Assembly (NCBI GenBank): GCA_022539475.1
Contig: VCMS01000431.1
Coordinates: forward strand, 1 to 32,648
Length of the DNA: 32,648 nt
From: Gracilaria domingensis
Taxonomy: Eukaryota; Rhodophyta; Florideophyceae; Gracilariales; Gracilariaceae
Direction of reading: 5' to 3'
How positions within the stretch are numbered: position 1 is the stretch's first letter; the number at the start of each line of letters is the position of its first letter. Made by a program: the position numbers and the translations under genes. This document shows, piece by piece, positions 951 to 29,590 of the stretch. The notes below the pieces were generated by a model. That model was not told where the DNA came from, ran no database searches, and saw only the letters and a list, made by a program, of their open reading frames with translations.

Positions 951-960
951 CGCTTCAGCG

Positions 961-6805: not shown

Positions 6806-6831
6806 AAGGGTATTGAGATATATACGACACT

Positions 6832-6837: not shown

Positions 6838-6857
6838 ACTGAGATCTCATATCATAG

Positions 6858-9978: not shown

Positions 9979-10009
9979 AGATAGTAGCATAAAATTATTG
10001 TTTATGACA

Positions 10010-10400
10010 TTGTTACCTTTACGTGTTATCACGACTATATTCTCCGTCTCCATTGGAGATGTATTTCTCTTGTATCACAACCGGGAAAGGATGTGAGAGA
10101 ACATCAATATATCCCCAGTGGACGCTGAGAGGGAGGATGAACTACTCTACGTGCTATCATTGTTACCCATCCGGTGTCGAGTGGTGACATATTCTTTTTT
10201 TGTCACAACCCACACATGATGTGACGGAAGAAGAAGATGCCCCCAGTCGAGACAGAGGGTAAGCTACTCTAAGTACAATCACTAGTCCCTAGCTTGCCTC
10301 CACTGGCAATATCTTCCTGTTTTGCTATAACCATCGAGTGAGGTTATGGTGGAAGAGAAAAAATATCGCCGGTCGAGGCGAGGTGGGTGGGGATTATGTG
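10010..10400 (+). repeat. Three diverged ~126-bp tandem units, each with a hairpin
   Basis: Three copies of a unit follow each other with a period of about 126 bases. Each shows a T-rich run, a short inverted repeat, a purine-rich run, a CCCCAGT/CGCCGGTCGA block and an ACTCTA-like end. The inverted repeats are TCACA/TGTGA (10075-10096), GTCACA/TGTGAC (10202-10225) and ATAACC/GGTTAT (10327-10347). The stem sequence of the third differs on both sides, so pairing is kept while bases change. They precede the coiled-coil gene at 10620 and could be part of its 5' region or an independent satellite. Confidence 0.65.
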
Positions 10401-10619
10401 AGCGCGAAAGAGGGGACAGAGAGGTGGCGCTCAAATAGTGGAAGGTGCGAAGGTGTACAGTAGATGTTTTGGCGGGAAATTGGATGAGGGAAACAGGGAC
10501 AATCATGGTGCTGGATATAGCCCGTGTGGCTGGACAGTGGGGGTGGACAGCACAGTTTAGCTCGATTGCACTGTATCGCAGCGGAAACTTCGATCCAACT
10601 ACTACTTCTTCTTCTGAAG

Positions 10620-11549
10620 ATGTCGAACGGATACGTGGAGGATGAGGAGCTGTTGGCGCTGTTGGAGGGGAAAGAGGTACTGCCGACGCCGTCACCAAAG
10701 CGGGAAGAGGACGTGATTACGGCGGCTGGTCGGATGTCGCAGAAGAAGGAAGTAGCCGATGAAGGAAAGAAGTGTGAGGCGAGGAGAGGGGATGGTGATG
10801 AGGTGGAGAAGGGTGTAGAATTGGAGGTGGAGGGGGTCGCAATGGAGAGAAGGGGTGTGGTGCATCTGAGTCAGTTAGAGGTTGGAGACCAGATAGAGAG
10901 TGGGGGCGGAGAGGGTGACAGGGAGATGCGGTTTGTGGGGGAGATGAAGGCGAGGGTGGGGATGTTGGGGTTGGTGATGAAGGAGCGACTGGAAAATGGA
11001 ATTATGGAGATTGTAACGGAAATGAGCGGTGTGGTGCTGAGTGGGGGTGGTAGTGGTGTTTCGGTTGAGGCGATTTCGAGCCTGCGGAATTCGTTGTCGG
11101 TATTGGGAGTGGAGATGAGAAATCATGTGTATGGGATAGTGGAGTGAGCGGGAAGGGAGGTTGGAGAGTTGCGGGAGGAGAATAGGGTTCTGAACGAGAG
11201 GTTGGACGTGCTGGAGAAGGAGGTGAAGGAGCTGGGCAAGAAGCAAAGATTGGTGGAAGAGGAGACGGTGAAAGAAGATGTGGAGGGAAAGACGGAGAAT
11301 GGAAGTGTGGGAAGGGTGGCGGTGCAGATGGGGTCCCCTGTGACACCGAAGACAAAGGGTGGTGGGGTTGGGGATGGGAAGAGCCGTGTGAAGAAGAGGC
11401 GTAAGGAGATGAAGAAGGTGGTGGAGGAGGTGCCGCCGGAGGGAGTCGGAGCTCCGGTCGTGACTGGGTTTAGGAGTGCGGCGGAGGTAGCGCGGATTGC
11501 GAAAGGGATTCTGAGGGGACAGGAGGAGAGAAGGATGGGAGGGATTTGA
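10620..11549 (+). pseudogene. Coiled-coil protein gene with a single in-frame TGA
   Basis: From the ATG at 10620 (MSNGYVEDEELLALLEGKEV) one frame runs 309 codons to TGA at 11547-11549, with a single TGA at 11145-11147. Directly after it comes a strong leucine-zipper-like heptad stretch (GELREENRVLNERLDVLEKE), so the two halves clearly belong together. Later there is a basic segment (KSRVKKRRKEMKKVVEE) and a conserved-looking end (SAAEVARIAKGILRGQ). The plus strand is very purine-rich and G-rich, which also leaves a long low-complexity His/Pro/Leu frame open on the other strand; that is a shadow. The protein resembles retroelement structural (Gag/ORF1) proteins in general form only. The stop could be a CGA-to-TGA mutation (Arg), a readthrough site, or the true end of a short form. 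Confidence 0.5.
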
Positions 11550-12510
11550 AGCCGTTTTGGGGCGAGGCGGGTATACGAGAACGGGGAGAGTTGTACACCT
11601 GACTTCTACAAAATGAACGCGTGATGGGCGAGAAATGGGTGAATAGCGGGGGTGGTGTGGACTGGGAAGAAGTGATGGGATGATTGAGGTGGGATGAGTT
11701 GCGATTGGCATTGCAACATGGAAGAAAATGGAAACGCAAACTAGCACCAGTGCAGTTTTGAGAGAGGGCCGCGGGAAACAGTGAATGGGGTGGTGCGGCG
11801 AAGTAGAACCTCTACAAAAACTAGGGGACCCAAGAACTAAACTGCGCGAAATGGAATTTAATATTCCAAAATTTCTTACTTATTTGAGTGCCAGCCTCTG
11901 CCACCCCCTCGCGCGCCCCAATTAGCGCCAAAACTAGCTTGGTTTCCAAAGCGAACAGACTATATTCCACTTTGCAGAACACAGACGTGTGAGAGCAGTA
12001 ACCTGGAAATTATATTCGCAAAACTGGTAGGTTATCATACAAGAAAACATGACCATTTCATGCCATTCTCACTCTCAGTATCGAACTGCCGGAACTTGTA
12101 CTGAATCCATTAGACATAAATTCTTTCCGACAGAGCAGGTTATTATACAGGACCGAGCCAAGCAATATTGCGGACCTCGGCTTACTTGGCCATGCTTCTC
12201 TTGGAAAAGCACTTGCCTCGGTCCACTATCGCTATTGTGCAATGAACTGTACGTGAGAGTTCTGCTAGATTTTTTGAATGTTAAGAGCATTTTGTCTGAG
12301 AGGCGAGAATGATCCCTCTGCAGCAGCAGCCCCCAAAATGTTAGGCAGACGAAATATCTGCAGGACAAATAAAGTGCGGAGGTCATTTTTGTAGATTAGT
12401 GACGCCGGGTGTGACAAACCCAACAGACAGAGCAGACGAGCAGACATTCCAGAGGGAACCAGCCAAGAATGGCGATGTGCACTGAGGCACAAAGGAAAAC
12501 AACAAAAGTG
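11550..12510. other. Non-coding stretch
   Basis: About 960 bases without a supported gene. The first part is the G-rich 3' flank of the coiled-coil gene. A pair GGACCGAG (12150-12157) and CTCGGTCC (12217-12224) forms an 8-bp inverted repeat around a 59-base spacer, and GGTTAT[CT]ATACA occurs twice (near 12031 and 12139). I see no reading frame with protein-like composition. Confidence 0.5.
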
Positions 12511-12692
12511 ATAACTGCAAAAGCCCACGCCAACTTTAGACGAAGGTTGGAATAATAAACGGTAAAGTGCTTGCCAAACTTCAGACACAGTCTCGAGATG
12601 ATACGGCTAAAACTTGCGCCAATTGTTAGACGCGAGTTCGGAAACCAACGGCAAAAGCTTGTGCCAAACTTCGGAAACAAGCTTGAAAAAAT
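12511..12692. repeat. Four tandem copies of a 45-bp unit
   Basis: Four adjacent units of about 45 bases are visible, the last three starting near 12558, 12603 and 12648. The shared core is ACGGCAAAAGCTTGTGCCAA followed by an ACTTCGGA-like block. The unit length is a multiple of three. On the minus strand the repeats lie inside an open frame (12396-12713) and produce a 15-residue hydrophobic repeat (for example LCLKFGKHFTVYYSN). No homolog is recognised, so whether this is a protein repeat or a plain minisatellite is undecided. Confidence 0.7.
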
Positions 12693-14157
12693 TAAAAGGA
12701 TATTGGTAGCCAATCACCATGCGTAGGCGAAAAAGGAAAGAATGGAAGGTAAGGCCGGAACCACCAAGCCGCGGAGAGAGGGATAAAGCAAAATTTGGGA
12801 AAGCACAACAAACTAAAGGGAAGACGGAAGAGAGCTTGAAGTAAAGATTAACGAACAGGTCTTTCTGTGTATGGGGGGGTGTAGTGGGCGGTAATTAGTT
12901 AGAGAGCATTAAAGATAGGTTATTTCTATCACCACTTAGATTATATAGACGATTCTAACTCGAGTCTAGATTTTGGTTGAGAGTAGGATACCTAGAAACT
13001 TTGTCTACGCTTTTACAATTGTGAGCAGTTCACAATATATTTTGAGACATTTCCGCGCATTACTAAAGCTTTAGTTTTGTGACGCTACTTCCTATTCATT
13101 CTTTTCTACCAATTTTCTTGGAAGCGTTTAGAAGTTCACGATTAGTTCAAAGACTTCTAAACAAGTCTTTCGGAATCATTCAGAAGCATCTGTATTTCTT
13201 TAATCTCGAAATTGGACATCTCTGACAAGAAACAAGTAGAGATTTTCAGTGCCATCTATAAGGTTCTGAATAATTCCAGGTATTTTCAGATCATTACAAA
13301 ACAATCTGGAATGTTCTCGTGAGTATTCTGTAATGGAAAGCATATGAGCCTCAAACACTCACGCAATCAGTAGGGGCTTCGCATGGGCGACCAACACTCA
13401 CTTCTTACATCGTAGTTTCCAAATCCCTATTCCTTGAAAGTTCTTCAGTAGTCTATTAGAAAGAAGAAGGAGACTCTGAGAAATCAGGGTCAGGCTCAAA
13501 GTTGACAATTAACTCCTCTCGCTGACCAATGAGCCTGATGAAGTCTACCACTTGCTTTTTTTGTGTAACTGCTCAAAGAAGTTACCCATGTATTCAAGTC
13601 TTTTATAATAGAAAGCATATGCGCCTCACAGAAAGAGGCTGCGTTCACAGTTCTTTACAATGCATGTACTATTCCTGCACCCTGTTGCGTCATATTTAGA
13701 ACGTAAGACGTTCAAGTGCTCCTGCCAAGACTGCAACCAATATAATTGCAATTAATTGCACCTCAAAACACAATAAACAATATTTCTAAATACTGGCCGC
13801 CGTCTTGAAATACAAATTGCAATAGCGCCCTAAATCTGAAATAAAATTGCAAAAACAGAATGGTTTTGCAATATGCAAGCAATATTGGTAATCACGGAAA
13901 CGTTTGTCCTTTCTGATTTTGATGAAAGGAGGTTCCATAGCCCTGTGATACGGTTGTAGACGATTTAGGCTTAAAATTAGATGTAGAAGATATTTCGCCC
14001 GTTTCCAGTAGAACCTCTTGGCACACTCCACCGCTCTATATGTCAGTGCGCTCTACTTCTTGTGTGGTAGCGTCGTAAACAACCTGTTGTAGACCTCTAC
14101 GAGCGAGGGCAAGAACTCGTCGACTCTGGCGACGACATGGCATCACCATCCTCATGA
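12693..14157. other. AT-rich non-coding region
   Basis: About 1.4 kb with stops in all frames and long AT-rich runs. The only internal structure I see is a 23-base direct repeat (13331-13353 and 13606-13628, core GAAAGCATATG), with copies 275 bases apart. It could be the remnant of a long terminal repeat or the flank of the transposon that starts at about 14158. Confidence 0.5.
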
Positions 14158-17100
14158 TTGGATAAACTCACGCGTGTCATTGTCTCCGACCCCGCAGCTA
14201 CTCGCCTGCTTCCTGAGCGGCAAACGACGGCCTTTGAGGACTTCAATAGTGCGTGCCAAGGCCCGTTTATGTCGCAAGATCTCGAGAGCGCAAGCGCGAA
14301 AACTTGCAACGCTAGGGTGACTAACCAAAACAGTATCGTTGACGATGACGTATGCATCTTACATGATGAACAGACTGCTCTTCAGGCCGATACTGAGAGC
14401 ACCGCAAGAGAAATTGAGAATTTACGCTTGGGCGAGTTTGAAATTCTGCGCATGCCCAATATATCCCAGAGGACCCTCTTATTTCTGCGCATGACGCCTC
14501 TATGAATGGGAGTGATATGCCTTTTTCGCAAGAGCTGCAAGAGCATATTGGCACAGAGTCCGTATGTAGCTCCCACCAAAGTAATGGCAGTATGAACGAC
14601 ACTGACTGGGACGCAGAGCTCACAATTCTACGTGAATCTTCGACACGTGGGATTCCCTCTACAGAGTCCGATAGTCAGATGTTGGTAATGGATGATATGG
14701 AGAGTCAGCTGTTTCACTCCTACGATGATGAGCGTTACGAAAACGTGCCCCGGCTGCAACAGGGTACTGAAAACATTTCATATTCAAACCTCGAATGATC
14801 AAGCAAGGAACTGCAAGATAGAGTTAATGCGAGCAAAGAGAGAGGGCTTCTTAATTGGTTGTATGACAGTCCATTCAATCCAATCAATGTCAACATTGAC
14901 GATGTAGATATGTGGTTCGGGAACCGTTTTATGACTGAAGCGAATGTGGTACTAGACAATGTTTTGTCTCAACTGGAGGCAAAGAGGTCAGTTGACAAAC
15001 AATCTAGTGGGCTAAGAAACCAAAACTCTGATCATACGCTTGTTGCACCTCTACGGCTTCTACGTGTATTCGTGCCAGATTCTCTACTAGAACGGCTTTC
15101 AGATGTTGCGAATCGCAGCTCGGTATCCAAAAAGAAGCAAACAACGAGCAAAGAAGAACTTCTTTGCATTCTAGTTCTGCACGTTTTGTGCGCATCGTAT
15201 GACGAGTCTCCTACTGTTCTTTGTGATCCTCAAGAAGCGGGAAATTTTCTACAGATTGGGATATCGAGTGAGAGGTATCTAGAGGTGTGCGCATCATTGG
15301 CTGCTGGTAAGCAAAAGCGCGGAGACATTGAATACTCAAGAACGAGATGGAGTAAAGCAGCGGGCCGACATACAGCGCTTATTTCCCAGGTCGAATCCGA
15401 TCTTGCGGCCATCAACCGCGAACTTCTTTATGTAGCAAAAGACACTACTCTCTCTCTCGATGATGATTATCTAAGAATGGCGTCAAGGTCCGTGGTGCAA
15501 CTGACCTATCTGGAACAACAGAAAAATTCCAAGAAAGGACTTGGGCGGGTGTGGAATGCGCTATGCTCTGCGTTAAATCCTTTGTTCATTGGATGTCACT
15601 TTTCCCGAAAGGGTGAGAAGCTTGTGCATATATGGGAGAGGCTGACGCGACTGCTTCAAGGAGCAAGCACCGAAGGGGAACTCCGAAAGATGTGTGCTGC
15701 TATTTTTGGGGCAGACCGTTGCTACATCTGACAGAAAACCACTGCTTTCGTTTGTAACAAGCTAGAGGCAAGTCTTTTCGGCACACACAAGAGGGATTTG
15801 ACGTATCCAGTTGTGTTTGGTGACGAAGCCATAACGCAGCGACAAAAAGGTATGCTTGTATCTTAAAAAGGCTGTACAGCTGTATATACTGCGCGTTTGA
15901 AGAGCAGAGACTCCCAACGAACGTCACCAAGGAAAGTGGAAGCCTGTTTGTATCGGGAAAGTTGTCCTGGCCGTATTGCTGCACTGATCCATAACAACCA
16001 GCGCCTGTTCAAATCTCTTTCATTCACAGTGGTCGTTCACGACCGCTATAGAAGCTTGTGAGCCATGTTGGATATTGCGCAGATACAACAGGTGTATGAA
16101 GAGGATTTGACCGCTCCTAAGACGATGAGAAGCAGTTCGGCTGTCACTGGGAGGAGTGCTGCTTCGGAAATCTTTCGCAATGTGTCGCTTTTAACGTCTT
16201 TCCAATCGGAGGATCCTGTGGGGTTGTTGCTTCGAACATTCAGTTTTACGCCCAGGACGTCGTATGGGTTTGTGACAGTTGTTGCGTCAGACTTCGGAAA
16301 GATGATCAAAGGGTTTTACTGGTTAGTAAGAGGGAAGAGTTTAGCAAGAGGCAGTGATCCTTTACCCCAATCTTGCACAGATTTGGAAGCCCGTTTCCAA
16401 CCCAAATGGGAAGCGCTCATAAAATGCTGGGAATCCAAACGAGAGATGTGGTTGAAACATCAACGGAGCTTGCTGCCGCTGGGCAATTAGACGGGTACTC
16501 CCTCGGTGAAATCACTGCGTTAACCAAGGCTTGGCGGCAAGAAATATGATCCGTATTTGACAGGTCTCTAACAGGCAGGCCATCGAAAAGCGACTTGGTA
16601 GCTGCCGTTCGAGAGCTTCAGAGTGACCTCAGAGAGGAAGGCTGATCCCGAAAGAAACATGTGAGCATGAGATGACGGACGAGGCGCGCGCTTAAATGTA
16701 CTCAAAAGTAGCCATATCGAAGTTGTAGCACGCCTCTTTAGAGGCGCGGGTTATGAAGCACCTCGTCTGTACTACCGGAATGAAAGAAGAGTCACGAAAT
16801 GAGATCGAAGTGTTGAAGCCCTTACCCAGTTTCTTTCAGGATAATCCAGGAGCATTTGAACTAAATCAGGCCGACCCTTTCCACAAGTTCGATATTACAA
16901 AAATTATAACAGTGAGTTATCCGCGCGCAGTAGGACTAGTACAAAGCACAAGTTGTGACATGATGGCACACAGTTCAGACGCTATCATGGCATGTCGATG
17001 GTGGGGAGAAGGATGGTTAAGGTGCGCAGCTGAAGTGAAGATAATGACAGCCGAGATGACAATCGAAGAAGCATCACACATTGCCGGGATATATGGACCA

Positions 17101-18222
17101 CTGGCAGTGATAAAAGATATTGACTCACGAGACCCACAACGACAGTTGCTGCACAAACTCGTACCCTCTCCGTCTTACAGAGCTTAAATTATTCACCACG
17201 CTGCTGCTTTAGATTTCAAATATGTGCTTTTTGTCGTGGAGACGGGTGGGTATATATCGGACGGCAGAATCTTATGCACATGTCTAATACAGATACCATT
17301 GACGATTCGAAATGCTTCCAGGTATGTACTGGACACCGTTCGCGTGGAATGTTTTGAGTGGGTGGACAAAAAGCCTGACTGCATACCAAAAGAGTACGAT
17401 GAGATGCTCAAGGACAGTCATGCTTCTGACCTTCATAGTTTTGCCTCATGCTACTCCCTGAGCAAGACACTCCGAGACGAGGTAGAACGCAACAAGCGTC
17501 CACTTCCGCGTTGCAGAATGATACGACTTACACCCGCCGTGTTTTGGAAGCATCTAAAAGAAGGCGTAGACGTTATATCACGGTACATGAAGACCTTAGC
17601 AAGGACAAGCATATCTGAAAATCTCGTGGTAAGCATCATAGCCAGGTTGCTCACAATGCATGTCAACAACGCAGCAGTTTTTTCTCGATTTCACAACGCA
17701 AGAGCACAAGCAGTTTTTCCATCAATTGGAAAGAACGTAAGATACCACAGTGCTCGGCATAAAGTTACCAGTTCTGAAACATTTGGCAGGTTTGTTCAGC
17801 AGCTCGCCAGAGAGTAAAGGGATTCAACGGCAATTGCTGAGGGCACAAAAGATATATACACAGACGTTACGAAAAAGCTTCAACTAAGATTTCTTCGCAA
17901 AGCGACTGAACAGTACAATCGTGGTTTAGACAAGTCGAGAAGGCTTGATACGAATTTCAATGATGAAAATATTGCAGCGCAGGCACCATATTGTTCTCTT
18001 TCTCACTGGTCATTGAGGGGAACTTGCGCGAATGGAAAGGTTAACTTGCAATATGAGGGATCAAAATCTACGCAGTGTTGCTCTAGTTGTCGGCAGCCAA
18101 TATGTGCGACCTGTTGGAACGATGGGCATATTAGGTCTGTGTTGGAACGAAAAGAAGTTTTCGATGAAGAAATGGAACGGTTTAAAGCTTCAGTTGGTGC
18201 AAGTCGTAGGAGGATTGTTTAG
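14158..18222 (+). mobile_element. Dead transposase gene, probably piggyBac-like, with embedded exonuclease-like domain
   Basis: One gene of about 1,350 codons can be followed in three frames. Frame 1 runs 14158 to about 14460; frame 3 to 16490 (stops at 14796, 15729, a TAA near 15860 and a TGA near 16056); frame 2 to about 16646; and frame 1 again to 18222 (TAA at 17185 and 17815). An acidic N-terminus is followed by a stretch with SLDDDYLRM (Asp triplet 15459-15467). Next comes FGTHKRDLTYPVVFGDEAIT, like the GTxR region of piggyBac transposases, and near the end FWKHLKEGVDVISRYM (Asp 17569), like their GVD motif. The C-terminus has a Cys/His cluster (CCSSCRQPICATCWNDGH), as in piggyBac zinc fingers. 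Between them lie a SAP-like segment (LTGRPSKSDLVAAVREL) and a PD-(D/E)xK signature: SSDAIMACRWW (Asp 16978), AEVKIMT (Glu 17032, Lys 17038), then YRA(stop)IIHHAAAL. This matches the D...ExK...Q order of lambda exonuclease/YqaJ proteins. The domain assignment is inference. Terminal inverted repeats and TTAA target sites were not identified. Confidence 0.55.
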
Positions 18223-18539
18223 ATTGTAACCGTTCTAAATCAAATCTGTCAAAAATTGGGCGACGCGACGAAACACGGGTTTCAAGCCGCTCCCACAGCC
18301 GTCTTCTTTGAGCAATTATTAAGATCTGTCTCTCAATTAAAAGGGCTTTTTCTGTGCAGAAAAAGAGCGCTGAAGAACGACGGCAGCAAATGTAGTAAGG
18401 AGAACAAACCAGCGTCCCAAACGTAAGTGTTTTGGCATATATAGAAAATTTGTCGCTCGTGCCGTGCGCACTTCATGTCGTAAGAACACCAGAACTAGCT
18501 AATCACAACGCCAAGAACGTGGAACTAGCCAATCCAAAC
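18223..18539. other. Spacer between transposon and retroelement
   Basis: About 320 bases without a supported gene. It contains AAAAGGGCTTTTTCTGTGCA followed by GAAAAAGAGC, a weak inverted repeat (about 18340-18368). It may hold the right end of the transposon, but I could not delimit it. Confidence 0.4.
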
Positions 18540-18770
18540 GCAACACGCACCGCCAGTTATTAAACCCTGTGGTATAACCGATCGGTGCGAGCTGTGAGTG
18601 GGGAGCCCTGCGTGGGCTCGACCTTGCGGAGGAATGAAACGCGTGACACCTAATTGGTCCGCAGCACCCGCCGTTGCCTATAGTGCACGGTGACCAAGTG
18701 GTAAATACGCCTGCACTGGTGTGCGGCAGGCACGTATCACCCTCGAGGCCAGCAAAACTAACAGAGGACT
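18540..18770. repeat. Left terminal repeat remnant (3' LTR candidate)
   Basis: It shares ordered blocks with 29330-29590 in the same orientation: CAAACGCAAC, a hairpin GAGCCC-TGCGT-GGGCTC, CGGAGGAATGAA, ACGCGT, GCAGCACC, TAGTGCA, ACCAAGTGG, GCCTGCACTGGT, GCGGCAGGCA and AGCAAAAC. Between blocks the sequence has diverged with indels. Several dispersed palindromes lie in or beside it (18564, 18577, 18693, 18780). The hairpin-bearing blocks are the best kept, so selection on structure or a protein-binding role is possible. Confidence 0.65.
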
Positions 18771-18789
18771 ACTAGACTTACCAATTGGT

Positions 18790-19769
18790 GACTGTAGAAC
18801 CGAACTGGTGTCGAATTAGCCTAGCTGGTGCTTGACGTTACCATTTCGTGTGGGAGGTTGGCGTCTCGGGGGTTTAGTACACCCGGGCGCCCCTCCGGCT
18901 CTCACGGGCCTAGTACCACGTGGGCCCCCGGAGATGCATTTGTGGTGCACCACCCCGGCCACATATCTACACTACCTAGTAAATATTAATTCTAAATTAA
19001 TGAAAATAAACTAATTAGTCCTTGTCGTCCGTGCCCATACGCGTCCCACGTGGTACAGTAGACACCCGGGCTCAGAGCCTGGTGACGTCACCGTTTGGTC
19101 GAGCGCAACTCCCCACACCGATCGGGCGTACTATAGTACAAACCCCCCTCCTACCAACAGGCACGCCCCGCGGCTGTACAGATCCGCCGGCGTCTGCCAC
19201 TCTTTCACCGAACGGTCAGGGCCTGACGTCGCCCGCCGCGTAGCGCGCGTCATAGCGCGACACGGCGCCTGTAGCGAAGTATCCTTTAGAGGTGGGGATC
19301 TCGAGTGCGTTGATTGCACACCCTCGTGGTCGCGCTCTCTGCCAGTGCCATCCCTAATAGGTCGGCACGCCTTTCGCAACGAATGCGCGACCTGAGCGAC
19401 CTTGCGGTGATCGGCGCCGAGTGTACCTATTGGTCGTCCTCCTCTTCTTCCCATCCTCGGTTTCTGGTTGCACCTCTACCCCCCAGCGGTACCTCTCTCC
19501 GCGGGTTGCGAAGCTTCCCGCGCTTTCCTCTTGGTTGCCGTGATCTTCCCGGACGGGTGTTGTCGACGTCGCCGCCCCCACCCCGGGGTTGCTAATACCA
19601 AGTGGTGCCTCACGGGTGAGTCTCATCTTGCGCCGGCTCGCCCTGACCTTCCTGGTTTGGTGACCGCTCCTCCGTGTCGGTTCGCTCCCTTGTGGGTTGT
19701 GTGATTTGCGTCTCTTGCCGTCTTGGTCTCCGTCCTCCGTGGCGTTTCCGCTGCACGATTTCTAACCTC
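18790..19769. other. Leader region of the plus-strand gene, no supported gene
   Basis: About 1 kb between the left terminal repeat and the ATG chosen for the plus-strand gene. It is GC-rich with short frames on both strands only. It includes one AT-rich island (about 18980-19015) and dispersed palindromes at 19090, 19399, 19425 and 19597. It probably contains the promoter and untranslated leader of the plus-strand gene. Confidence 0.45.
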
Positions 19770-22529
19770 ATGGGTGAACGGTTGACCTCCCCTACGGCGT
19801 GGTCTATGACCTTCGAGCGCTGCATGGACGGGGATAACGTCTGCGTGTCCCCCGTCCTGACCAGTGCGGGGCGTGCTTCCGATGCAAGCGCTCCTTACGC
19901 GCACGATTACCAGTTGGTGCAGTCCTCGCGTCGCCGTGGCCTATCCCAAACCGGTACCCCGGTTTCCCTTCCAGCGGGAGTCGACGCTGCCGAAGCCGAG
20001 ACCCTCGTGGTGCGCGAAGAGCCGCAATACGACCCTATAAGGGGCTGATCCACCTCTGAGGTATCTCCCTCACCGCAGACGATCCTCTGGGTCCGAGAGG
20101 TTCTTGCGGCGTCTAGGATGTCCGGAAAGACCACTGGAGTAGCCCGCTGGGGTGGCGGCGGCATTTTCAAACCGACCACTCGGGTTAGCACCCGGGCTCG
20201 CCAGGATCCATATCGTCTTGGCGAGGGCTATGATCCTTATGTCGCCGCTGCTGGTCCCAGCAACATCAACCCCTTGGCGGTCGCCGGAACGGTGGAGGCT
20301 CAGAAGCTCACCCCGCACGACCTTAACAGGACACATGGGCAGCCGCACGCCCATCATGGCGCCCGGTTTGCCGACATCTCCGCCGAAATGGTCGCTCTCG
20401 GGGACTGGCCGTTTCATTTCAGCTCCTCGTTCTGTCCCTTGCGGTTCCGCCATATGGCACTCTCGCAGTACAGCGCCATTGCCCGCTGGGATTGTCGCCG
20501 TGTAGAGGCGGTGCCGATGGCTCCTCCGCCACCCCGTCAGGGTGAGAAGCAGAACCGATTTGGTCGTCCTCAGTGCTTCCACGCACGGCAGAGGCACACG
20601 ACGTTCCTCTACTACATCCTAGTGGCCATCCCGTCGGACCTTCTGTTCATCCGATGCGACGGGGAGGTCCATTACTTCCGCCGCTTGGTCGATATCATTC
20701 ACCGTCTGGACGAACCAACTGGTCACCTCGAGGTTAATCTCGACTACGTGGCGTTCGAATGCCCTTTAGACACCAACTATTGAACAGACGGTGGCAAGTG
20801 GGCGACCCATGCGATGGCCGAGAGCCGGGTTCGTCACCGTCATGGTCGTACGCGTACGATGCATCTCTTCCACAACGTTGAATACTGCTCGCAGAGCGAC
20901 CAGAACCGCCGTTCGTGGTATGTGAGCTGACCGTCTTGGTGGGATCACTATGAAGTTTGCCAGTGGTTGGAGGTGCCGACCCCTCCGGTTCTAGCGTTCT
21001 TTGGAAGTAGCATCGTCTCCGAAAGGAACAATGCGTACGCCGTTTGGTCGGTTTCGCGTAGCGAATGGGCCGTTATGGTGGCGATTCTCGCCCTTCAGGC
21101 ATCCGTGGACGGTGTGACCTGGGACACCCGCTGTCCTGACAAGGCCGTCGGCATCAGCGGTACTCAACCAGTTGGTCGTGTCTTCCACATCCCGACTGAT
21201 GTCATTGGAGACATTCGTGCGATGGGGCTTGCCGCCATTGTGGAAGGTACGAAGTATACTGCTCAGCAACTCGACAACTACCTCACGGCTGTGAGTAACC
21301 ACAATTGGGGCGACCATCAAGGTTGGGACGTCTATGACCCTGAGGTACAGAGCATAGTGCCCTTGCAGAACCAGCATGTTGCTGGCGAGGACCCTTTTGG
21401 TGACGACGATACCATGATGGTGGCCGCCGAGAATTGTGAGTCCCCTGCATTGCCTCCGTCGGCTCCCGTGCAGGCCACTTCCCCTACCAGTGTGGCGGCT
21501 CCCACCCCTGGTGGTCCTCCAAATGCTCACGCAGCGGCGCATCTTCCCGCCCGCAGGACCCATGGGCCTCTCCGCGTTGGTTTTCAGTCGCTCCCGGTAA
21601 ACGAGGTACCTTCAGGTGGTGACAGCGGTGCGATTCGGAGCGCTCTGGCGCGTCTCAACCACGCGTCGATGGTGCAATTCAACAGTCCTGGTCCAAATGA
21701 CATCCTCACCGCGGTGGATACCTTGACCAACTTGCTCCCAGTGGTCGCTCACCATGAGCGGCGTACCAGCGAGTTGTGGCAGTTCCGCGACAGCTTCCAG
21801 CGCAAGCTCTACCGTGAGGTGACTGCCTATGTCGGTCAGCTGAGCAACCTCGTGGAAGGCCATGCGCCGTTACATCGACCCCCTGTGGAAAGTTTCAACC
21901 CGTATGGCCCAGCGTCTCAGGCGCCTGCGACCCAGACGGTAGGCTTCGGTGGTCTCGGGAGGTATCAACCGCCAGGTGGAGCTCCTGGTGCAGATCCTTC
22001 GGCACCCTTTCATACACCGCTTGGTCCTCATAACGTTCCTCTCCCTCCTGCCAGGACTGGGATGGGAGCACCAAGTGGTTTCCAAACTGGTTTCTGCTCG
22101 GCTCCGCTTCCGTCGTCGTCCAGTGCTCTTACGGCGCCTGCTGGTCCTGGGCCTTCGAGAATTTGGGCACCTCCTGGTCTGACCCTTGGTGCAGGGCCGT
22201 CCACCGGTGTTGATCCTCCTCCGACCTCTGGCGGTATCCCTCCGACTAGCTTGCCGCATTCCTTCCATCCACCCACTGGTCCTGCGAACACCATGCCTGT
22301 AGTTAGCCGCGGCACCTCAGTAGGGCCTTCTGCCTCTACTCTACTACCAAGTGGTGGTGCGCCAGCGAGCGCAGCCAGCGGCGGAGGCGGAAGCTCCACC
22401 GGTCCTATGTCGGTTTTCTCTGGTGGTGGAGGTTCCGCGTCGTCTTGCGGTACCTCTCGTGGGCGTGGGCACGGTCGCGAGACCGGTCATGGTTTCGGAC
22501 GTGGCCGTGGTTCTGCCAAGGCCTCCTAA
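19770..22529 (+). pseudogene. Antisense extra gene of the retroelement, three in-frame TGA codons
   Basis: A single frame stays protein-like for 920 codons from the ATG at 19770 (MGERLTSPTAWSMTFERC) to TAA at 22527. It is interrupted only by TGA at 20046, 20781 and 20928. The N-terminal half (after an internal ATG at 20118, MSGKTTGVARWGGGG) is rich in aromatic residues and His, suggesting a folded domain (FHFSSSFCPLRFRHM, LEVNLDYVAFECPLD, PSWWDHYEVCQWLEV). The middle has a helical segment (RLNHASMVQF through LYREVTAYVGQL). The last 200 residues are Pro/Gly/Ser-rich and end in RG repeats (SRGRGHGRETGHGFGRGRGS), typical of nucleic-acid binding. I do not recognise the family. It converges with pol (150 bases between ends). 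Its position between pol and the 3' repeat recalls antisense ORFs of Tat-type elements. The TGA codons may derive from CGA or TGG; recoding is possible but not needed. Confidence 0.55.
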
Positions 22530-22568
22530 GTAATCTTGTGGTTAGCGCTTGTGGGTCCGTCTTTGACT

Positions 22569-22574
22569 AATAAA
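22569..22574 (+). terminator. Poly(A) signal AATAAA
   Basis: AATAAA 39 bases past the TAA of the plus-strand gene, followed by a GT-rich stretch (GTGTCTTGCGTTGTGCGTTA). This is the expected layout of a cleavage/polyadenylation site and supports the plus-strand gene as a real transcription unit. Confidence 0.6.
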
Positions 22575-22679
22575 GTGTCTTGCGTTGTGCGTTATGATCT
22601 GGTTCCATTTTCCTGTTAGGTTAGTTAGCATTTCATGTGCCAGTTGGCGTTCAACAGCTTAGAAAACCCTCCTCCCTCC

Positions 22680-24568
22680 TTAGCGACGCGTACCACTCGG
22701 AGGAGTACCAGTTGGTGGGGGCGTTCGCCCATGTTTGCGCCAGTATCGGATGATGAATTTGTTAGGGATATGACCAGGTGGTTCCATAGAGTCGTACTCT
22801 GGCGACCATCCGTACCATCCTACCCTGTACCTGATACCCTTTGTGATGTGTTCGTGACCTACAATGGTGTCAATAGCACACTCCTGGGTGTCTACTTGAG
22901 GATGTGACTCTTCTGTTTGGTCGCGAGGTGCTTGGCTCCCCATAACTCGATCTCCCGTGCCTCTTGGGTCGTGGGGTCAGCCGTTACGGCCCTGATGGAA
23001 CGTTAACCGCTCGGTTGACTCGTCAGAGGAGGGGCTATAGGAGACGTTTCTCCCCTTTGACCTTCCTTCTGAGTTGGATCACTTATTGGTTGTGTATGCG
23101 GTGCCGTCGTTTGTGCGGCCTTGGCAATCCTATCGATGGAGACGGTGTTCTCCAAGCCATCCATTATGACCGTAGCGGTATGCTCATCGGAGCGAATCAC
23201 CTTATATGGTCCCGTCGACTTGCGTAGTAGTTTAGAGTTGATATCCTCCTAAATGCGGATGTCTTCCTCTATTTCCGCTGGCGTCGGTCGTTTACCTTTT
23301 GGTGGTACGTCGATGTAGACCATGTCTTCTGCTACCACTTTGGTTACTATGCTCACCGTTCGGTCATAATCTGCTTTATAACGATCGTGGACTGCTGTCA
23401 TTTTGACTTTGGCGGCAGCCAGAGCAGCGCGTAGCTTCCGGAGTATGTTTCGCTTGACCTTCGCAGGTGTGAGTGTCCCTGCCGCTTCCGAGCGGTCGGG
23501 TCCGGGCTGGACGATAAAGCCGTGTGGTGTTCGTGAAAGTACCAGTTCAAACAGGGTGGTCTGGGTGACCCTGTGGACCTGGAGTTTGTACGCATATGTC
23601 AATGGTTGGACATATTCCGACCATTTGGTTTGGTGCTCTTCGACGTAGTGCCGTAGGCGTGCCACTAGGGTCTTATTGAACCGTTCTACTTGGCCGTTTG
23701 TTTGCGGATGATAGCCCGTGGTGAAGTAGTGTTTGACCCCTACCATGGTGCAAACCGCCTCAGAGAACTTAGAAGCTAAGTTCGAACCATTATCGGTCAG
23801 TAGGTACATAAGAGCACCGTATGGGTAGACCCAGTTCTCCAAGAAGGCTGTCGCCAGTGTCTTTGCCGTTTGGTTCTTCAGGGGTATGGCCCTGGTGGGC
23901 TTCGTGAACCTATCGGTTATGACTATTACAAAGCGAAAACCCTCCGAGGTCTTTGGCAGGGGCCCCAGTATGTCGATCGCGACGAATTCCAGGGGCCCCG
24001 TCGCCGGGAATAGCTTCAGGTACTTCCTGTGCTTCCTCACACCACCTCGGGTCTTAATGCACGAGTTGCACTCAGCCACATAGGTATATACGTAGTTAGC
24101 CATGTTCGACCAGTAGAATTGCCTCCGAAGGGTATAGTACAACCGCATGGCTCCAGGGTGTCCCGAAAGCCGTTGGTTGTGTGACAAATACAACCCTCTT
24201 TGTCTTAATGACTCAGGTACAACCTTCTGGAGAGCTCCGTCTAAAGGTGAGCGTCTGATGAGGTACCCATTGTGGTCGACGTCGAACTGAGAATCCTTCT
24301 TTCTTACTACGTGAGCGAGCGTTTTGCACGACCTATGGGCCGATTGTTCGCGTAGGAATTCCTCACGGGTGATTGGAGCGTGTTCTCCTTCTTCCACAGG
24401 GAGGAGAGTCTCCACCACCACTTGGTACGTACTGTCATCATGCCAGTGTCCCTTCAGAACTTCGTTGACCTCGTGGTTCGCTGATTCTATTGTAAAACAT
24501 GGAATGTCGTCTTCCACTGGGTCAGTGTCCAATCCTTCGGTACTCAACCGGTACATTACATCCGCCAC
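22680..24568 (-). pseudogene. pol: Integrase with C-terminal chromodomain
   Basis: The frame from 24568 to 23249 has the full integrase plan. An HHCC zinc-binding domain (HNQRLSGH ... ECNSCIKTR) precedes the DDE core: VAIDILGPLP, LLTDNGSNLAS and YHPQTNGQVERFNKTL, so all three acidic residues are present. After a TAG at 23249-23251 the same frame continues with LLRKSTGPYKVIRSDEHTAT, the GPY/F motif of gypsy integrases. A frameshift later, residues at about 22880-22734 read IVGHEHITKGIRYRVGWYGW and EYDSMEPPGHIPNKFIIRYW, a clear chromodomain. In chromoviruses this domain directs insertion to marked chromatin. The catalytic core is intact, but the stop and frameshift should detach the targeting domain. 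Confidence 0.85.
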
Positions 24569-25949
24569 TCAGTGCTTGACCCCGGGGCGGCCGTACTGCA
24601 CATCGTAGTCAAACTCCGAGAGTCTTAGGCGCCATCGGGCCAGACGACCCGATGCGTCCGCCAACCCTAGTATCTACCTCAAAGAGTCATGATCCATTCG
24701 AAGCGTGAAGCGCACACCATATAGGTAAGGAAGTAGCATGAGCATACTTTAAACAAGCGCTAGGCATTCCTTCTCCGTTACAGTATAGTTCTGCTCTGCT
24801 TGGTTCAGAGCTCTACTCCAGTACCCAATTGGTGCGAGCGTGCCGTCCTCCTGTTCCTGCATTACGCAGCAATCTATTTGGGCGTCCGACGCGTCTGTGT
24901 CCAGCGTATACAGGAGTCCCGTTTTCGGCAGTGCCGGTACCGGTGGGGAGAGAAGCGCTGCTTTCAATGTGTGGAAGGCCTCTACCTCGTCTTCTTCCAA
25001 GTGGCCGAAGTGTGTGGGTTGCCCCTTCTGCAACCTCCGGTTCAGGGGTGCAGTTATCTTTGTAAAACCCTTAATGAACCGCCGGTAGACGTTATATAGA
25101 CCTATAAAGGATCGCATGTCCAACGTAGGGAGCTTCGCTTCCTGTACCGCTCGGATATTCCGTTTGGCCACTTCGAGTTTCCCGGGGCTTTTCGTATGCC
25201 CTAGATACTCTACCTCTTGGCTGAAGAACATACATTTTCGTAGTTTGAGGGTCACGCCTGCCTCCTGTAGCAACCGAAATACCACTTGGACGAGTGAGAA
25301 GTGTTCCTCAATGGATCGCGAGTAGATGACTACATCATCTATATATACCAATGCGGTTGTCCACTTCACCTTAGACAGTATGATGTCTAATGCTCTTTGG
25401 AAAGTAGCTGGGGCGTTTCGCAAACCGAACGGCATACGTAAGAAGCGATACAGGCCTGCGTGGCATGTAAACGCAGTCTCATCACGATCACCCTCTGGTA
25501 TTTCGATCTGCCAATAGCCGCAGTTCGCGTTCAGTGTGGTGAATATGTTCGCATCTCCTAGGGAGTCGATGCATTCATCCATCCTCGGGATGGGATATGA
25601 GTCCCTCACCGTTACGGCGTTGAGTTTTCTGTAGTCAATACAAAACATCAACGGGTCTCTCTTCGTTTTTGGACTAGCACTACAGGGCTAGACCATTCCG
25701 AGTTTGCCGGCTCTATAAACCCCTCGCGGAGCATCCGCTCCACCTCCTCCAGCTCTACCTCACGGGCCTATGTCCCGCGCGGTATGGCTGTTGGTGGATG
25801 GGACGGGAGTCCGGTTTGAGGTCAATCCTATGCTGGGTGGCCTTAATGGCTCCCAGATGACCAGATCACATGGTACTGAATGGCTCAAAGAGTCCGAGGA
25901 TCCGGGCTCTGAGCTCTTCCCCTTCAAGTCCTATATTCACTTCCGTTTT
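24569..25949 (-). pseudogene. pol: Reverse transcriptase and RNase H, catalytic Asp lost
   Basis: The RT region starts near 25860 (HRIDLKPDSRPIHQQPYRAG, after a TGA at 25866-25868). It is frameshifted near 25740 and again near 25640, and is then open from 25651 to 24749. Motifs in order are LMFCIDYRKLNAVTV, YPIPRMDE, FTTLNANCGYWQIEI, RFLRMPFGLRNAPATFQRAL, ALVYIDDVVIYS and VEYLGHTKSPGKLEV. The YIDD box is intact. In motif A the expected catalytic Asp (LDxxSGYxQ) is Asn, encoded by AAC (minus strand) at 25529-25531. RNase H follows (LYTLDTDASDAQIDCCV, TEKECLALV). It is cut by TAA at 24749 and TAG at 24674, both at positions where relatives have Trp, and by TGA at 24569. The gene is non-functional both by missense and by nonsense changes. 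Confidence 0.85.
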
Positions 25950-27218
25950 TTAATTCGTCACTGGGTCGAGCTCCAGTTTCGGGTCTTCTCGCTCAGCTAG
26001 TCGCTGCACCATATGGTCTGTTTGCGGCGAATTGGCACTGCCTCCCCCCTCTTTAGCGTCCACGGCCTCGTGAGACCATTGTGGTTTGATCGTAAAGATC
26101 GTACGAGGAGCCGGTAGGGCCAGACCAATTACGGTGTGCTTTCGCAACTTAACCGGGCGGTTGGTGAAGTTACTGAGGTAGACCTGAAACGGTTTTGTCG
26201 GTATGTTGTCGACTCTACCATTTGCCATTAAGGTCATATGTCGTTCAGCCAGCCGTGAGTGGTTCTGAATAGATAATAAACCAGGTTGTTGGCATGTCAC
26301 CTTCACTACCAAGTGGTTCATAGTCGGTATCGTTACCGTTTTTGCCAGTCGCACCTTGTTGGAGAGTGTATTTTCCGGAACGGGTTGGTGGCAAATGCTT
26401 TTCTCCGTGGGAGAGGCACCCTTTTGGTTACCAACGATGGCAATACGGGGGCCATTGTGGAACAGCACCGTCTTAGAGTGTGGGAAAATCGCCCCGACGT
26501 GCTGGTCTATAAAGGTCGTCCCGAGGATACAGTCTGTTGCCAGTTGGTTAACGGCTATGAAGCGGACTCGGACCTTCATGGTGTCAATCTATACCATTAT
26601 GGTAAGCGCGCCCATGACGGTTAATGGTGTGTTATTGGCGTCAACCAGCGGGTTAGTTAATGTACATGGCTGAAGCTTAGTAAGTTGTCTGTTAGTTAGT
26701 AGTTTGGCATTCTCCAGAATAGGTCCTGCTCCGGTGTCCAGGACAGTGACGCATGGTACCCAGTGGTTAGAAGTAAACCCGAGGGTGACGTTTACCTTAT
26801 AGTTACTATGCTTTAGGAAGCATATGGGTTCGGTGCCATCCATGAGGCTCTCCTCCCCTGTAACCAATGGGTAATTGTCCATACTTGCACCACTTGTTCT
26901 GGAAGGCCTTCCACATTCGGACAGTTGGGGGAGGTCTCTATCCCAACTGTTCGGCGTTTTCCGCCTGCGGGCAGGCTCCGTTTGGTCCTCCTCCGTAATG
27001 ATGTGTACCTGATGAGGTGTGGCTGCATTGGGGCGCGCATTTGCGTGTCCCGTGCCTGCGCTCCGCGCTGTAGGCCCAAATATATCCTGGTGGTTCTGCT
27101 GGCGAGCAGTCAGGAGAGCGTTCCTGTTCTGCGGAGCCACACTCGGGCACGCTGTTGCCAAGTGGTGAGGCGATAAACAGAACCAACACAGGAGATTACC
27201 GTTTGTCGGGTCCTTCAT
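25950..27218 (-). pseudogene. pol: Zinc knuckle and retropepsin-like protease
   Basis: From an ATG at 27218 the frame reads NLLCWFCLSPHHLATACP, a CX2CX4HX4C nucleocapsid knuckle (about 27188-27147). It then passes through a hydrophilic linker to VPCVTVLDTGAGPILENAKL. There DTGA is the active-site motif of retroviral-type aspartic proteases. The flap and second half follow, with a TAG at 26589-26591 in the middle, and ILGTTFIDQH matches the conserved ILG strand. The frame goes on to TAA at 25950-25952, just before RT. Apart from the one TAG the 1.27-kb frame is open, so this is the best-preserved part of the element. Confidence 0.8.
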
Positions 27219-28950
27219 CGCGAGCGACGGCGCGCGTGTTGGGGGACGACCTCCAGTCGGTGCTACACTCCGTTGCTGTGGGGGTGGTCATCTATCACCA
27301 TATTGGTTGAATGGCACCGCTCGGACCGAACTGACCAGTACGGATACCTGTGATGGTGGAGCTGAGGTTTACCTCGAGGGTGGTTCACTGGATAGCGAGC
27401 TGGACTAGGAAGTGTTACCGTGCGATCGGGTTGTCGGTTGTGCATGCACCAAGTGGACTGGGTGACCCTGGGAGGCATACTGTGTGGATGCCTCATCCGT
27501 AGTGGTCTCCTCTTTTTCTACGTCAAACACTGACGGCCTGGTTTTTCCTTTCTCCTTCGATGGTTTGCCAAGTGATGCGGAGTCTTTCCTGGCGCCTGAC
27601 CGGACGGTGTCGCTTAGTCCCTGTGCATGTCGACCTAGTGCGTTGTAGTCGACCGTGCGGTTGGTGGCTAGGTAGTTACGAGCCTGTGATCGGATAGACT
27701 TCGCCACGTTGTCGGCGTACGATTTCAACCTCTTGGTAGTAAAGACACTTCCACAGCGAGAGGCTAATGCCCACAGGGAGCGAGCGAATTCCAATTCGGT
27801 TTGTACCGCGCGCTGGCGGTACGCAAGCACCTCTGCTTACGCCTCCTGAATTACCTCATCGGTCGCCTAGGTTTCCAGTAGAAAGTCAACCACCTGTGGG
27901 TATGTCGTCAACATTTCTGTTTGGTCTTCGTCCACCGCCATGGTGTTTTTTTGGAGGCGGCTATGGAGCAACGTTCCAGCTTGACCAGTTATGTAGAATT
28001 GAAACAACTACATGGCTGCTGCCTCTGAAAACCCATTCTGGTCAAAAGCTGTCTTGAACCTTTGAAGGAAATCAATGATCGCAATAGGGTCATCCCCACT
28101 AAAGCGAGTCTCACCCAGTTGGAAACGAGCTTCCTATGATGCTTCGTTATCTTCTGAGCTACCTCTTTGGTATACTCAGCCTGTCTGTTCTCCAACCTAT
28201 AGGTACGATAGTCAACCGATTTGGTGAATAAATCGTTAAGCGGTATGAGCACCTGTACGTCAGTCTCTTCGTCGAAAGTTGAGTCCGAATCATTGTACCT
28301 TTCGGTCTTACCCTTGCCGGTATTCTTTCCTTTCTTCTGGCGAGAGTCCTTCGTCTTGCGTCGTGAACCTTTACGGTCGTTTTCTCCTGACGAATCCGAA
28401 TCGCCTGAGGACGAAGAGAGTCCGAGTCCGACCGGCGACTCTTTCTCTTCCCCTTTTGTTTTTCTTCTTCTTACCATTTGGTTTACGTCGACGCTCGTCT
28501 CCTGAGCTTGACGAATCTCCATCAGGGTCTCCATCACTTGGTCCTGACGGAGCTACACCAGTGGGTTGGGGGAGGTATACGTACCTCGGCCCTCCATGCC
28601 AGGAGGCTCTGCCCCTTTCCCCATGCGGTCGATAAATCTTTCACCAATCGGTTGTGTAGGAAGGTTAGGATGGAGAACACCAAGTGGTTTCGTGGCCTCT
28701 ACAGCAGGCTGGGGAGCATGCTTCATGAGGGCGGCCTGGGCCACCATCTCAGGTTGAAGCTTAGCTCCCTGCTGCTGCAAAGCCAGCATAACCAATCGGT
28801 CAATGTGACTCGTACCTCGTTCGCGAGGTACTGTAGCACCACCACGGGTACCTTGTCGAGAATCTCTTGAGAGGCTCGATCAACTACGACTCGGGTGACC
28901 TCGTTCAGGTCCAGCCGAGGCCCGACTGGGACCTCCATTTGGTCTACCAC
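27219..28950 (-). pseudogene. gag: Gag capsid region, several stops and frameshifts
   Basis: The N-terminal part starts near 28950 (DLNEVTRVVVDRASQEILDK), shifts frame near 28800 and continues with LQQQGAKLQPEMVAQAAL and a stop at about 28553. A charged, Ser-rich segment follows (LGLSSSSGDSDSSGE, basic KGSRRKTKDSRQKKGK). After another shift near 28110 the capsid homology is clear: RFSGDDPIAIIDFLQRFKTA, then LFQFYITGQAGTLLHSRLQ, and VLAYRQRAVQTELEFARSLW. Stops lie at 28008 (TAG), 27867 (TAG), 27837 (TAA), 27403 (TAG) and two more before the zinc knuckle. Gag forms the particle that packages element RNA. The order gag-knuckle-protease fits a single Gag-Pol product, since capsid and protease share a frame. 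Confidence 0.7.
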
Positions 28951-29140
28951 TGGGGTTGTTACTGGAGCGGGCTACTCCGTTGCGGAGTCTGCTCCTCCGT
29001 CCACTTGGTCAGCCCGGGGAAGGGTCGAGGGGCCCCCAGCCTCTCGGTCTACCTTCTTCCCATTAGGTGGGCGTTCCTTCCGAATTAGGTTCCTCCGGGT
29101 TATCCAACACCGGATAAGACACTGAATCCCGTACGGGGTG

Positions 29141-29150
29141 ACCACTTGGT
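29141..29150. promoter_or_regulatory. Outermost non-LTR copy of the dispersed palindrome, upstream of gag
   Basis: ACCACTTGGT, the reverse complement of ACCAAGTGGT, lies in the leader between the right terminal repeat and the gag start. It is the only full-consensus copy in the untranslated leader, so it is a candidate regulatory or packaging site. Function is not shown. Confidence 0.3.
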
Positions 29151-29329
29151 GGAGCGCTCGACGCCCTTTTCGGGTGACGCACGCCCCGTTTCTCTATTTA
29201 GGTAACTGGTGTCGGAGCAGATTGCTTCGCCAGGACTCGGCGAACCAGAAAGCCATCCCGCTGGTATCTAAGTTGAATTCCTATAACCTCCTCCATCCAA
29301 CAACCGACTTGCTCTCCTATAGGGCATCT

Positions 29330-29590
29330 GGTTTCATCAACGCAACTTATGGGTTAACCCGCATCGGAGTCTGATCGAGCTGGTTGCGCACACTGGATGA
29401 GCCCTGGCTTGGGCTCGACACATTGTCGGAGGAATGAACGCGTTTGTATAACCTAAAGGTCGGCAGCACCGCTCACGTTGAGTCTTTCGCTTACTAGTGC
29501 AGCGCGAGCTTACCAAGTGAGCTAAGGCCTGCACTGGTTGCTGCGGCAGGCAGCAATCTGTAGCAGCAAAACGCCTTTGCTGGGATGCAC
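29330..29590. repeat. Right terminal repeat remnant (5' LTR candidate)
   Basis: Homologous to 18540-18770 in the same orientation; the shared blocks include GAGCCC-TGGCTT-GGGCTC, CGGAGGAATGAA, CGCGT, GGCAGCACC, TAGTGCA, TTACCAAGTG, GCCTGCACTGGTTG and GCGGCAGGCA. It carries one dispersed palindrome form (ACCTAAAGGT, 29451) where the left copy has ACCTAATTGGT. In the orientation of gag-pol it would be the upstream LTR and would contain the promoter, but TG/CA ends and a tRNA primer site were not found. Confidence 0.6.

Follow-up and report, generated by a model that had tools for sequence, protein, structure and literature searches.

Lineage-specific palindromes dispersed through Ty3/gypsy-type retroelements of the red alga Gracilaria domingensis: a possible means of self-recognition

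Introduction

Contig VCMS01000431.1 of the red alga Gracilaria domingensis (C431 in the 77.9-Mb assembly GCA_022539475.1), analyzed here over its full 32,648 nucleotides and referred to as the window, contains a Ty3/gypsy-type retroelement in which a short palindrome, ACC-n4-7-GGT (n, any nucleotide), recurs from one end to the other. Why should such a site be written all through a retroelement, coding sequences included? We approached the question by comparing the window element with its relatives in the same genome. The comparison suggests that the sites may serve the elements to recognize copies of their own lineage.

Results

A palindrome fills the window element and stops at its ends

The palindrome ACCNNNNGGT (ACCn4GGT) occurs 53 times between positions 18564 and 29460. 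An earlier, sequence-only reading of this DNA, which first reported the enrichment, had counted 28 copies and placed three more outside the element; exactly three are found there, at 545, 2694 and 5518. The stricter form ACCANNTGGT, credited in that reading with 16 matches and with a chance expectation well under one, has 17 matches inside the element and one outside; shuffled sequences contain a mean of 0.24 and a maximum of 3. In 300 dinucleotide shuffles of the element ACCn4GGT averaged 3.9 (maximum 12), which rules out local composition as the cause. The spacer is not fixed, the element containing 53, 34, 18 and 11 ACC-n-GGT sites at n = 4, 5, 6 and 7, respectively, and 2 to 6 at each value of n from 0 to 3 and from 8 to 12. 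Sites with n = 4-7 number 116 inside the element and 11 in the rest of the window. None lies between 10.2 and 18.5 kilobases (kb); inside the element they run at about 5 per 500 bp and they end near 29.45 kb, so that the step in density is sharp on both sides. In the host DNA of the window, the palindromes of all lineages described below are at chance level only.

Codon or amino-acid preference had been discounted on the ground that copies lie in genes on both strands. Shuffling synonymous codons in eight open reading frame (ORF) fragments, from both strands, bears this out: the n = 4-7 count was reached in only 0 to 8 of 500 trials, and either preference is thereby ruled out as the cause. The suggestion that sites thin out over the conserved reverse transcriptase (RT)/RNase H/integrase stretch was right for RT and RNase H (24569-25949; 2.9 sites per kb) but not for integrase (23249-24568), whose 11.4 sites per kb fall within the range of 8.3-13.3 for the other parts of the element. 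A search of the window for direct repeats of at least 30 bp found none, and an origin of the sites from tandem repeats was rejected. Nor was regular or helical spacing found in the window element: the coefficient of variation is 0.87, against 0.98 for random placement, with a fraction of 0.107 of the nulls as low. The corresponding fractions in two relatives are 0.159 (L039) and a borderline 0.0495 (L040), and |R| for a 10.5-bp phase is 0.05-0.13.

Structure of the element

The element reads on the minus strand, in the gypsy order RT, RNase H, integrase. The window copy is broken: the pol side is split into several ORFs, and a plus-strand gene, antisense to pol, into two pieces. Its parts are:

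18564-29460, Ty3/gypsy-type retroelement with 116 ACC-n4-7-GGT palindromes (53 with spacer 4); RT and integrase domains
18564-18573, first ACCn4GGT site of the element
18603-18668, left terminal-repeat-like stretch (3′ long terminal repeat (LTR) side for the pol strand), pairing with 29399-29470 at 78% over 74 bp
20049-20783, plus strand, N-terminal fragment (244 aa) of the antisense gene, broken copy; 81% identity to the antisense ORF of 941 aa in copy C4 (L045)
20931-22529, plus strand, C-terminal fragment (532 aa) of the antisense gene, broken copy; 84% identity to L045; 87 genome matches
22070-22079, one copy of ACCAAGTGGT, the full site that occurs most often; others at 18693, 19597, 22346, 26308 and 28679
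23249-24568, minus strand, integrase part of pol (Integrase_H2C2, rve)
24749-25687, minus strand, RT and RNase H part of pol
25950-28552, minus strand, ORF fragments upstream of RT, on the protease/gag side by position; no Pfam family reached the cut-off
29399-29470, terminal-repeat-like counterpart of 18603-18668 on the right (5′ LTR side as pol reads), 78% over 74 bp
29451-29460, last ACCn4GGT site of the element

A CX2CX4HX4C string resembling a zinc knuckle was read by eye within 26589-27287. Besides the RT, RNase H and integrase of the window copy, a chromodomain is present in relatives (Chromo, 5.3e-9 and above the cut-off in L043; 1.7e-4 in L044, where 21.9 bits remain under the cut-off of 25.1), which places the group among the Ty3/gypsy chromoviruses. 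The ends of the window copy share patches only (78% over 74 bp and 92% over 26 bp) and are therefore old LTRs at best. The earlier claim that the motif occurs in both terminal repeats stands to the extent that each 78% stretch holds a site.

The assembly contains at least 127 scored matches to the RT and 87 to the antisense gene. Fragments identical at 100% to the window copy lie on other contigs (RT on C587 and C588, antisense gene on C588), which suggests recent duplication or duplicate contigs. Elsewhere in the window, two inverted-repeat pairs, at 963-1717 (93 nt, 96%) and 1221-1406 (92 nt, 89%, 2 nt apart), are perhaps a foldback element. Of 12 phycobilisome-family matches in the assembly, 10 fall on contig C680, which is probably plastid; these matches are in keeping with a red-algal host.

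Each of five lineages carries its own palindrome

Five RT lineages were examined. Each has a dispersed palindrome of its own, built in every case on a CC(N)xGG core and recurring every hundred to few hundred letters through the element genes:

Lineage 1: ACCn4-5GGT
Lineage 2: CCGn2CGG
Lineage 3: CC[A/T]..GG, with 3-4 letters between
Lineage 4: CCGn3-4CGG
Lineage 5: CCCn3-4GGG

Among 27 loci at about 91-92% RT identity to the window copy (L012-L038), 26 contain 17-21 ACCn4GGT sites, compared with 14 in the corresponding 3.9 kb of the window copy; the exception, L038, has 12. The sister lineage 1b, at 71-74% RT identity (L039 on C38 and L040 on C342), carries in 8 kb 36 and 33 ACCn4GGT together with 39 and 44 ACCn5GGT. 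Lineages with other words are at about 61% RT identity. In lineage 2, L041 and L042 contain 24 and 34 CCGn2CGG, along with 15 and 25 CGTACG; in lineage 3, L043 contains 18 CCAnTGG and 15 CCTnnAGG; in lineage 4, L044 contains 30 CCGn4CGG and 24 CCGn3CGG; and in lineage 5, L052 contains 18 CCCn3GGG and 17 CCCn4GGG. Second copies, which share sites with the first by descent and are not independent, show the same word in lineage 4 (L053, L054) and lineage 5 (L055), and more weakly in lineage 3 (L056; 10 CCAnTGG, 6 CCTnnAGG). Lineages 1a and 1b keep one word at about 66% DNA identity, and only 14 of 26 aligned sites (14 of 28 in the other direction) are common to both, so that they appear to be nearly independent instances of that word.

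In an RT tree of 11 copies, the lineages with more than one row (1a, 1b, 2 and 4) form supported clades. When motifs are tabulated against lineages as shuffle z-scores, the strongest values lie on the diagonal, and separate scans of lineage 5 agree. The own palindrome ranks first among all pairs of 3-mers in the window copy, L039, L040, L041, L042, L044, L052, L053 and L054. The distance between CC and GG peaks at 4-6 letters in lineage 1a, 4-5 in 1b, 4-6 in 2, 3-4 in 3, 5-7 in 4 and 4-6 in 5; the same spectrum is flat in positions 1-18563 of the window. The spacer thus ranges within a lineage over some three to four values.

The lineage 1b copy on C342 provides a second element with both ends visible. 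It measures 9929 bp, has LTRs of 511-512 bp that are 93% identical, and contains 42 spacer-4 and 65 spacer-5 sites (107); its 3.1-kb flanks contain 0 and 1. Here, as in the window, the limits of the array are those of the element. Of 150 Ty1/copia matches, four were also scanned. Two (L047, L049) showed no palindrome enrichment and one (L048) a slight excess of CC-n5-GG (13 versus 6.2 expected). The fourth (L050) has CCGn2CGG only at 2779-3618, toward a lineage-2 RT copy further along the contig, and these sites can be read as the putative start of that adjoining element. In addition, a Ty1/copia RT-like ORF recognized by eye (L039:6768-7943) starts where the sites of the C38 lineage-1b element stop.

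Genome-wide, triple clusters of ACCn4GGT number 990, versus 122 for the reversed pattern. Among the first 100 cluster places, 72 have an RT or antisense-gene copy from our lists no more than 9 kb away, belonging to lineage 1 (63) or lineage 3 (9).

Sites are in excess of coding constraints and, in lineage 1, conserved

The codon test was extended to stop-free pol ORFs of lineages 1b, 2, 3 and 4. In each the own motif exceeded all 400 codon shuffles: 29 v 7.5 in lineage 1b, 21 v 5.5 in lineage 2, 63 v 29.5 in lineage 3 and 33 v 7.0 in lineage 4. The antisense ORFs of lineages 1a (21 v 5.0) and 4 (15 v 3.2) likewise exceeded all 400. Motifs of foreign lineages were mostly at chance, with the exception of CCGn3-4CGG in lineage 1b pol (7 v 1.8; 0/400) and of ACCn4-5GGT in the pol of lineages 2 (7 v 3.0; 5/400) and 3 (9 v 4.2; 7/400).

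Conservation was assessed in pairwise alignments of copies by comparing motif letters with identical trimers elsewhere. From the window copy to C4, 186/186 motif letters are kept v 332/357 (p 3.6e-5), and in the reverse direction 226/233 v 319/351 (p 0.0036). Within lineage 1b, the figures are 474/498 v 576/649 from L039 to L040 (p 1e-4) and 475/504 v 555/617 in reverse (p 0.011). Comparisons with L040 gave 90/108 v 208/306 from the window (p 0.0019) and 128/154 v 224/309 from C4 (p 0.011), the reverse of the latter being 130/165 v 236/326 (p 0.15). In the antisense gene, L045 to the window copy gave 110/120 v 259/310 (p 0.031). Control palindromes, few in number in two alignments, showed no significantly higher conservation, and one of them (GGT, L040 to L039) was less conserved (75/90 v 955/1031, p 0.0043). 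The two LTRs of the C342 copy, taken as a neutral control, contain few sites, with core letters kept at 35/36 and 39/42 and the rest at 441/475 and 437/469.

DNA sites or RNA hairpins

A palindrome with a short spacer can be read in double-stranded DNA or as a hairpin. In the latter case the sites would fold in the RNA of the element or in its single-stranded cDNA and might serve, for instance, as packaging sites for Gag scattered along the molecule. LTR-type elements do pass through single-stranded RNA, and most spacers are loop-sized (3-7); on the other hand, loops of 1-2 nt would be needed in lineage 3 for CCAnTGG and in lineage 1 for ACCAnnTGGT. The CC/GG core is strict; the A outside it in lineage 1 varies more. 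Single-mismatch variants that G-U pairing would tolerate are no commoner on the sense strand, and wobble pairs are not enriched. The strict core and the missing G-U strand signature argue for double-stranded DNA.

Two pair patterns complicate the matter. At the inner pair, complementarity exceeds what the consensus letters account for in lineage 4 (observed/expected: AT 9/4.0, TA 12/4.1, GC 69/46.8) and lineage 5 (AT 17/10.4, TA 14/5.9, GC 16/9.4, CG 41/34.4), and such Watson-Crick enrichment over several letter pairs is what a stem would give. Conversely, complementary letters are avoided in the window element at the pair that flanks ACC..GGT (8/105 complementary vs 26 expected, with G-C and C-G totalling 1), and longer stems are thus not favored; this anti-complementarity is weaker in lineage 1b (12/19, 13/19, 4/8) and shows no clear trend in the other lineages. 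Altogether, we judge the hairpin explanation unlikely. Independent reading of two half-sites by a protein predicts neither the inner covariation nor the outer anti-complementarity, and both count against a simple picture of DNA recognition. Possible contributors to these patterns are the tuning of affinity, remnants of earlier specificities and an avoidance of longer stems.

The antisense gene as candidate for the binding protein

In lineages 1a, 2, 3 and 4, the copies examined have an ORF downstream of pol and antisense to it (two overlapping ORFs in L042). The four proteins are homologous (tblastn E 1e-20 to 5e-83) and well diverged: identity to the lineage-4 row over the alignment is 24% for lineage 1a, 31% for 2 and 35% for 3, with local matches at 28-42%. 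Elsewhere, relatives amount to two metagenomic proteins among the best 8000 candidates scored. Being present in lineages 1 to 4, the four of five covered as far as this region (in lineage 1, in 1a), diverged, and outside the reverse-transcription machinery, the antisense protein is the best candidate for the binder.

A separate stretch of 72-82 aa, 51-52% identical, is found downstream of pol in lineages 1b (L039:4511-4726, L040:4495-4740) and 4 (L044:3823-4314), on opposite strands relative to pol.

Discussion

A reading to which we give roughly even weight is that the palindromes may be binding sites in double-stranded DNA, arrayed over the whole element, for a sequence-specific dimeric protein of the element's own lineage. 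Through them, this protein would recognize copies of its lineage. It would be encoded by the elements, most likely as the product of the antisense gene; for lineage 1b, which has its motif in common with lineage 1a, the latter might supply the product in trans. Coating along the length of the element could then counter silencing at the chromatin level, our first choice of function and one suggested by analogy only. Variants of the same scheme would be copy-number control or a mark on the DNA for some other stage of the life cycle; packaging is a further possible function. Since protein and sites would change together, the lineages would drift apart. Stated more broadly, and held rather more tentatively, the proposal is of a self-addressing code within this retroelement clade. 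A homologous family of dimeric proteins would read CC..GG half-sites, with the neighboring letter and the spacer shifted in each lineage, and each protein would coat only its own copies, coding and non-coding parts alike; elements without the gene, such as the C342 copy, would use the protein of a relative.

That the palindromes are a lineage-specific tag for self-recognition is supported indirectly by the difference in motif among five lineages, by host DNA at chance level, by the failure of codon use as an explanation and by the conserved letters of lineage 1. Several observations weigh against it. The table of motifs by lineage has signals off the diagonal: CCGn2CGG in lineage 1a (16 vs 4.6 expected), CCGn3CGG in lineage 1b (12 vs 1.5 and 9 vs 1.6), and ACCn4GGT in lineages 3 (10 vs 1.8) and 2 (6 vs 2.2 and 9 vs 3.0). 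In lineage 3, the palindromes of L043 come no higher than seventh and eighth place among pairs of 3-mers. Codon shuffles show no enrichment in the antisense ORFs of lineage 2 (4 v 2.2) or lineage 3 (8 v 7.5), and the antisense gene compared from the window to L045 shows no significant conservation of motif letters (128/156 v 241/282). Lastly, motif letters are not significantly more conserved than the same trimers in lineage 2, in both directions, or in lineage 4, in five comparisons (p 0.36-0.6); set against all other letters, two of the five lineage-4 comparisons gave p 0.024 and 0.018. Only in lineage 1, consequently, are individual sites shown to be under constraint, and the sequence-only reading's idea of a self-recognition system draws no support from site conservation in lineages 2 and 4.

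This last result would be in keeping with an origin of the palindromes by a mutational or compositional process, such as targeted mutation, correction of palindromes or codon bias. Such a process would have to produce a different motif in each lineage within one nucleus, and to do so despite the outcome of the dinucleotide and synonymous shuffles. The conserved letters of lineage 1 also speak against it, and the anti-complementary outward pair of the window element is opposite to what palindrome correction would leave. We consider it highly unlikely.

Further difficulties concern the identity of the binder. The antisense protein matches no Pfam family under E 0.2, hence no known DNA-binding domain, and the PDB sequences that it matches are limited to a histone H1 (E 0.029) and an ice-binding protein (E 3). 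In the C342 copy of lineage 1b the motif is present and no antisense gene is detectable by tblastn, so that the binder there would act in trans or be another protein. Moreover, 28 of the 100 listed cluster places (on C8, C10, C16, C25, C26, C32 and C39) are near no listed copy; as the copy lists are lower bounds, some of them may be unlisted copies. The C39 stretch (L046:1-1700), with 21 ACCn4-5GGT sites in its first 1.7 kb and no ORF longer than 97 aa, is possibly a non-autonomous element or a relic bearing the word of lineage 1.

Motifs on copies without the gene, as in C342 and on C39, would also suit a host factor involved in silencing, chromatin or nuclear organization, with different host paralogues for the different lineages; the common CC..GG core would fit one such protein family. 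We find this quite unlikely, for the host DNA of the window is at chance level, the motifs differ among lineages of a single genome, and sites exceed codon chance in coding DNA and are kept in lineage 1. Such excess and retention of sites speak for a benefit to the element, the target of a silencer being expected to be lost.

The palindromic form would equally suit sites of host DNA methylation or restriction, as the sequence-only reading had also considered. This is barely credible: the motifs are lineage-specific, a six-frame search of the genome gave 0 matches to the C5-DNA methyltransferase family (PF00145; the assembly may be incomplete), and the elements show no CpG depletion (observed/expected 0.94-1.24). 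For the last two reasons, a loss of DNA methylation of the kind brought about by VANC is unlikely as the function of the proposed self-recognition.

Comparison with known systems

Short palindromes at high frequency are a feature of cyanobacterial genomes, where, according to extracts of PMC4390886, HIP1 is iterated genome-wide and linked to methyltransferases. The palindromes described here are instead bound up with lineages of retroelements, and the word differs from one lineage to the next. Closer in setting are the Sireviruses, plant Ty1/copia elements with family-specific, dyad-symmetric palindromes, mostly of CGG-CCG signature and present in 8 to 32 copies per element; these lie mostly in the LTR near the TATA box (117 of 127 3′-LTR copies in its upper half), with some at the envelope-like gene (extracts of PMC2829016). 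Those extracts describe no motif through gag-pol, whereas in our Ty3/gypsy elements sites extend over the whole element and do not cluster in LTR or linker. Among titles and abstract openings searched (most subscription journals falling outside the scope), none described a palindrome that is specific to a lineage and scattered through the coding region of LTR retroelements.

VANDALs, with which the sequence-only reading drew a parallel, are Mutator-like DNA transposons. In Arabidopsis, their VANC proteins act on motifs that are dense in the own family, rare elsewhere and different between related families; motif density matters, and co-evolution of protein and motif has been proposed. The motifs are non-palindromic, in one orientation, and lie in non-coding tandem repeats (extracts of PMC5735166 and PMC10398659). 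The parallel stands for the enrichment of a motif in its own family and its change between relatives, both found here together with off-diagonal signals. It ends with the class of element, here LTR retroelements, and with the sites, here palindromes of variable spacer that run through coding DNA, no tandem repeats being found. It ends also with the absence of a detected C5 methyltransferase and with antisense proteins that match no Pfam family.

As to the antisense gene, the nearest likeness is Retand, a Ty3/gypsy element with an antisense ORF (TRP28) between pol and the 3′ LTR, for which DNA binding and regulation are suspected (extracts of PMC11963269); the antisense ORF downstream of pol in lineages 1a, 2, 3 and 4 is placed alike. 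Retand belongs to a non-chromovirus plant lineage, and the same extracts mention no dispersed motif for it. TRP28 (PF04195) found no match in our antisense proteins up to a maximum E of 5, HMMER filters dropping most matches above 0.1. The function of antisense genes of Ty3/gypsy elements is described as unknown (extracts of PMC11963269), and the present proposal would give them a concrete functional hypothesis. With antisense genes and site sets available for four lineages, co-evolution of protein and DNA in selfish elements becomes directly testable, and what to expect of cross-binding is plain. If the proposal is true, these elements contain a counterpart to the VANC motif system among LTR retroelements, written through coding sequence and with at least five addresses in one genome.

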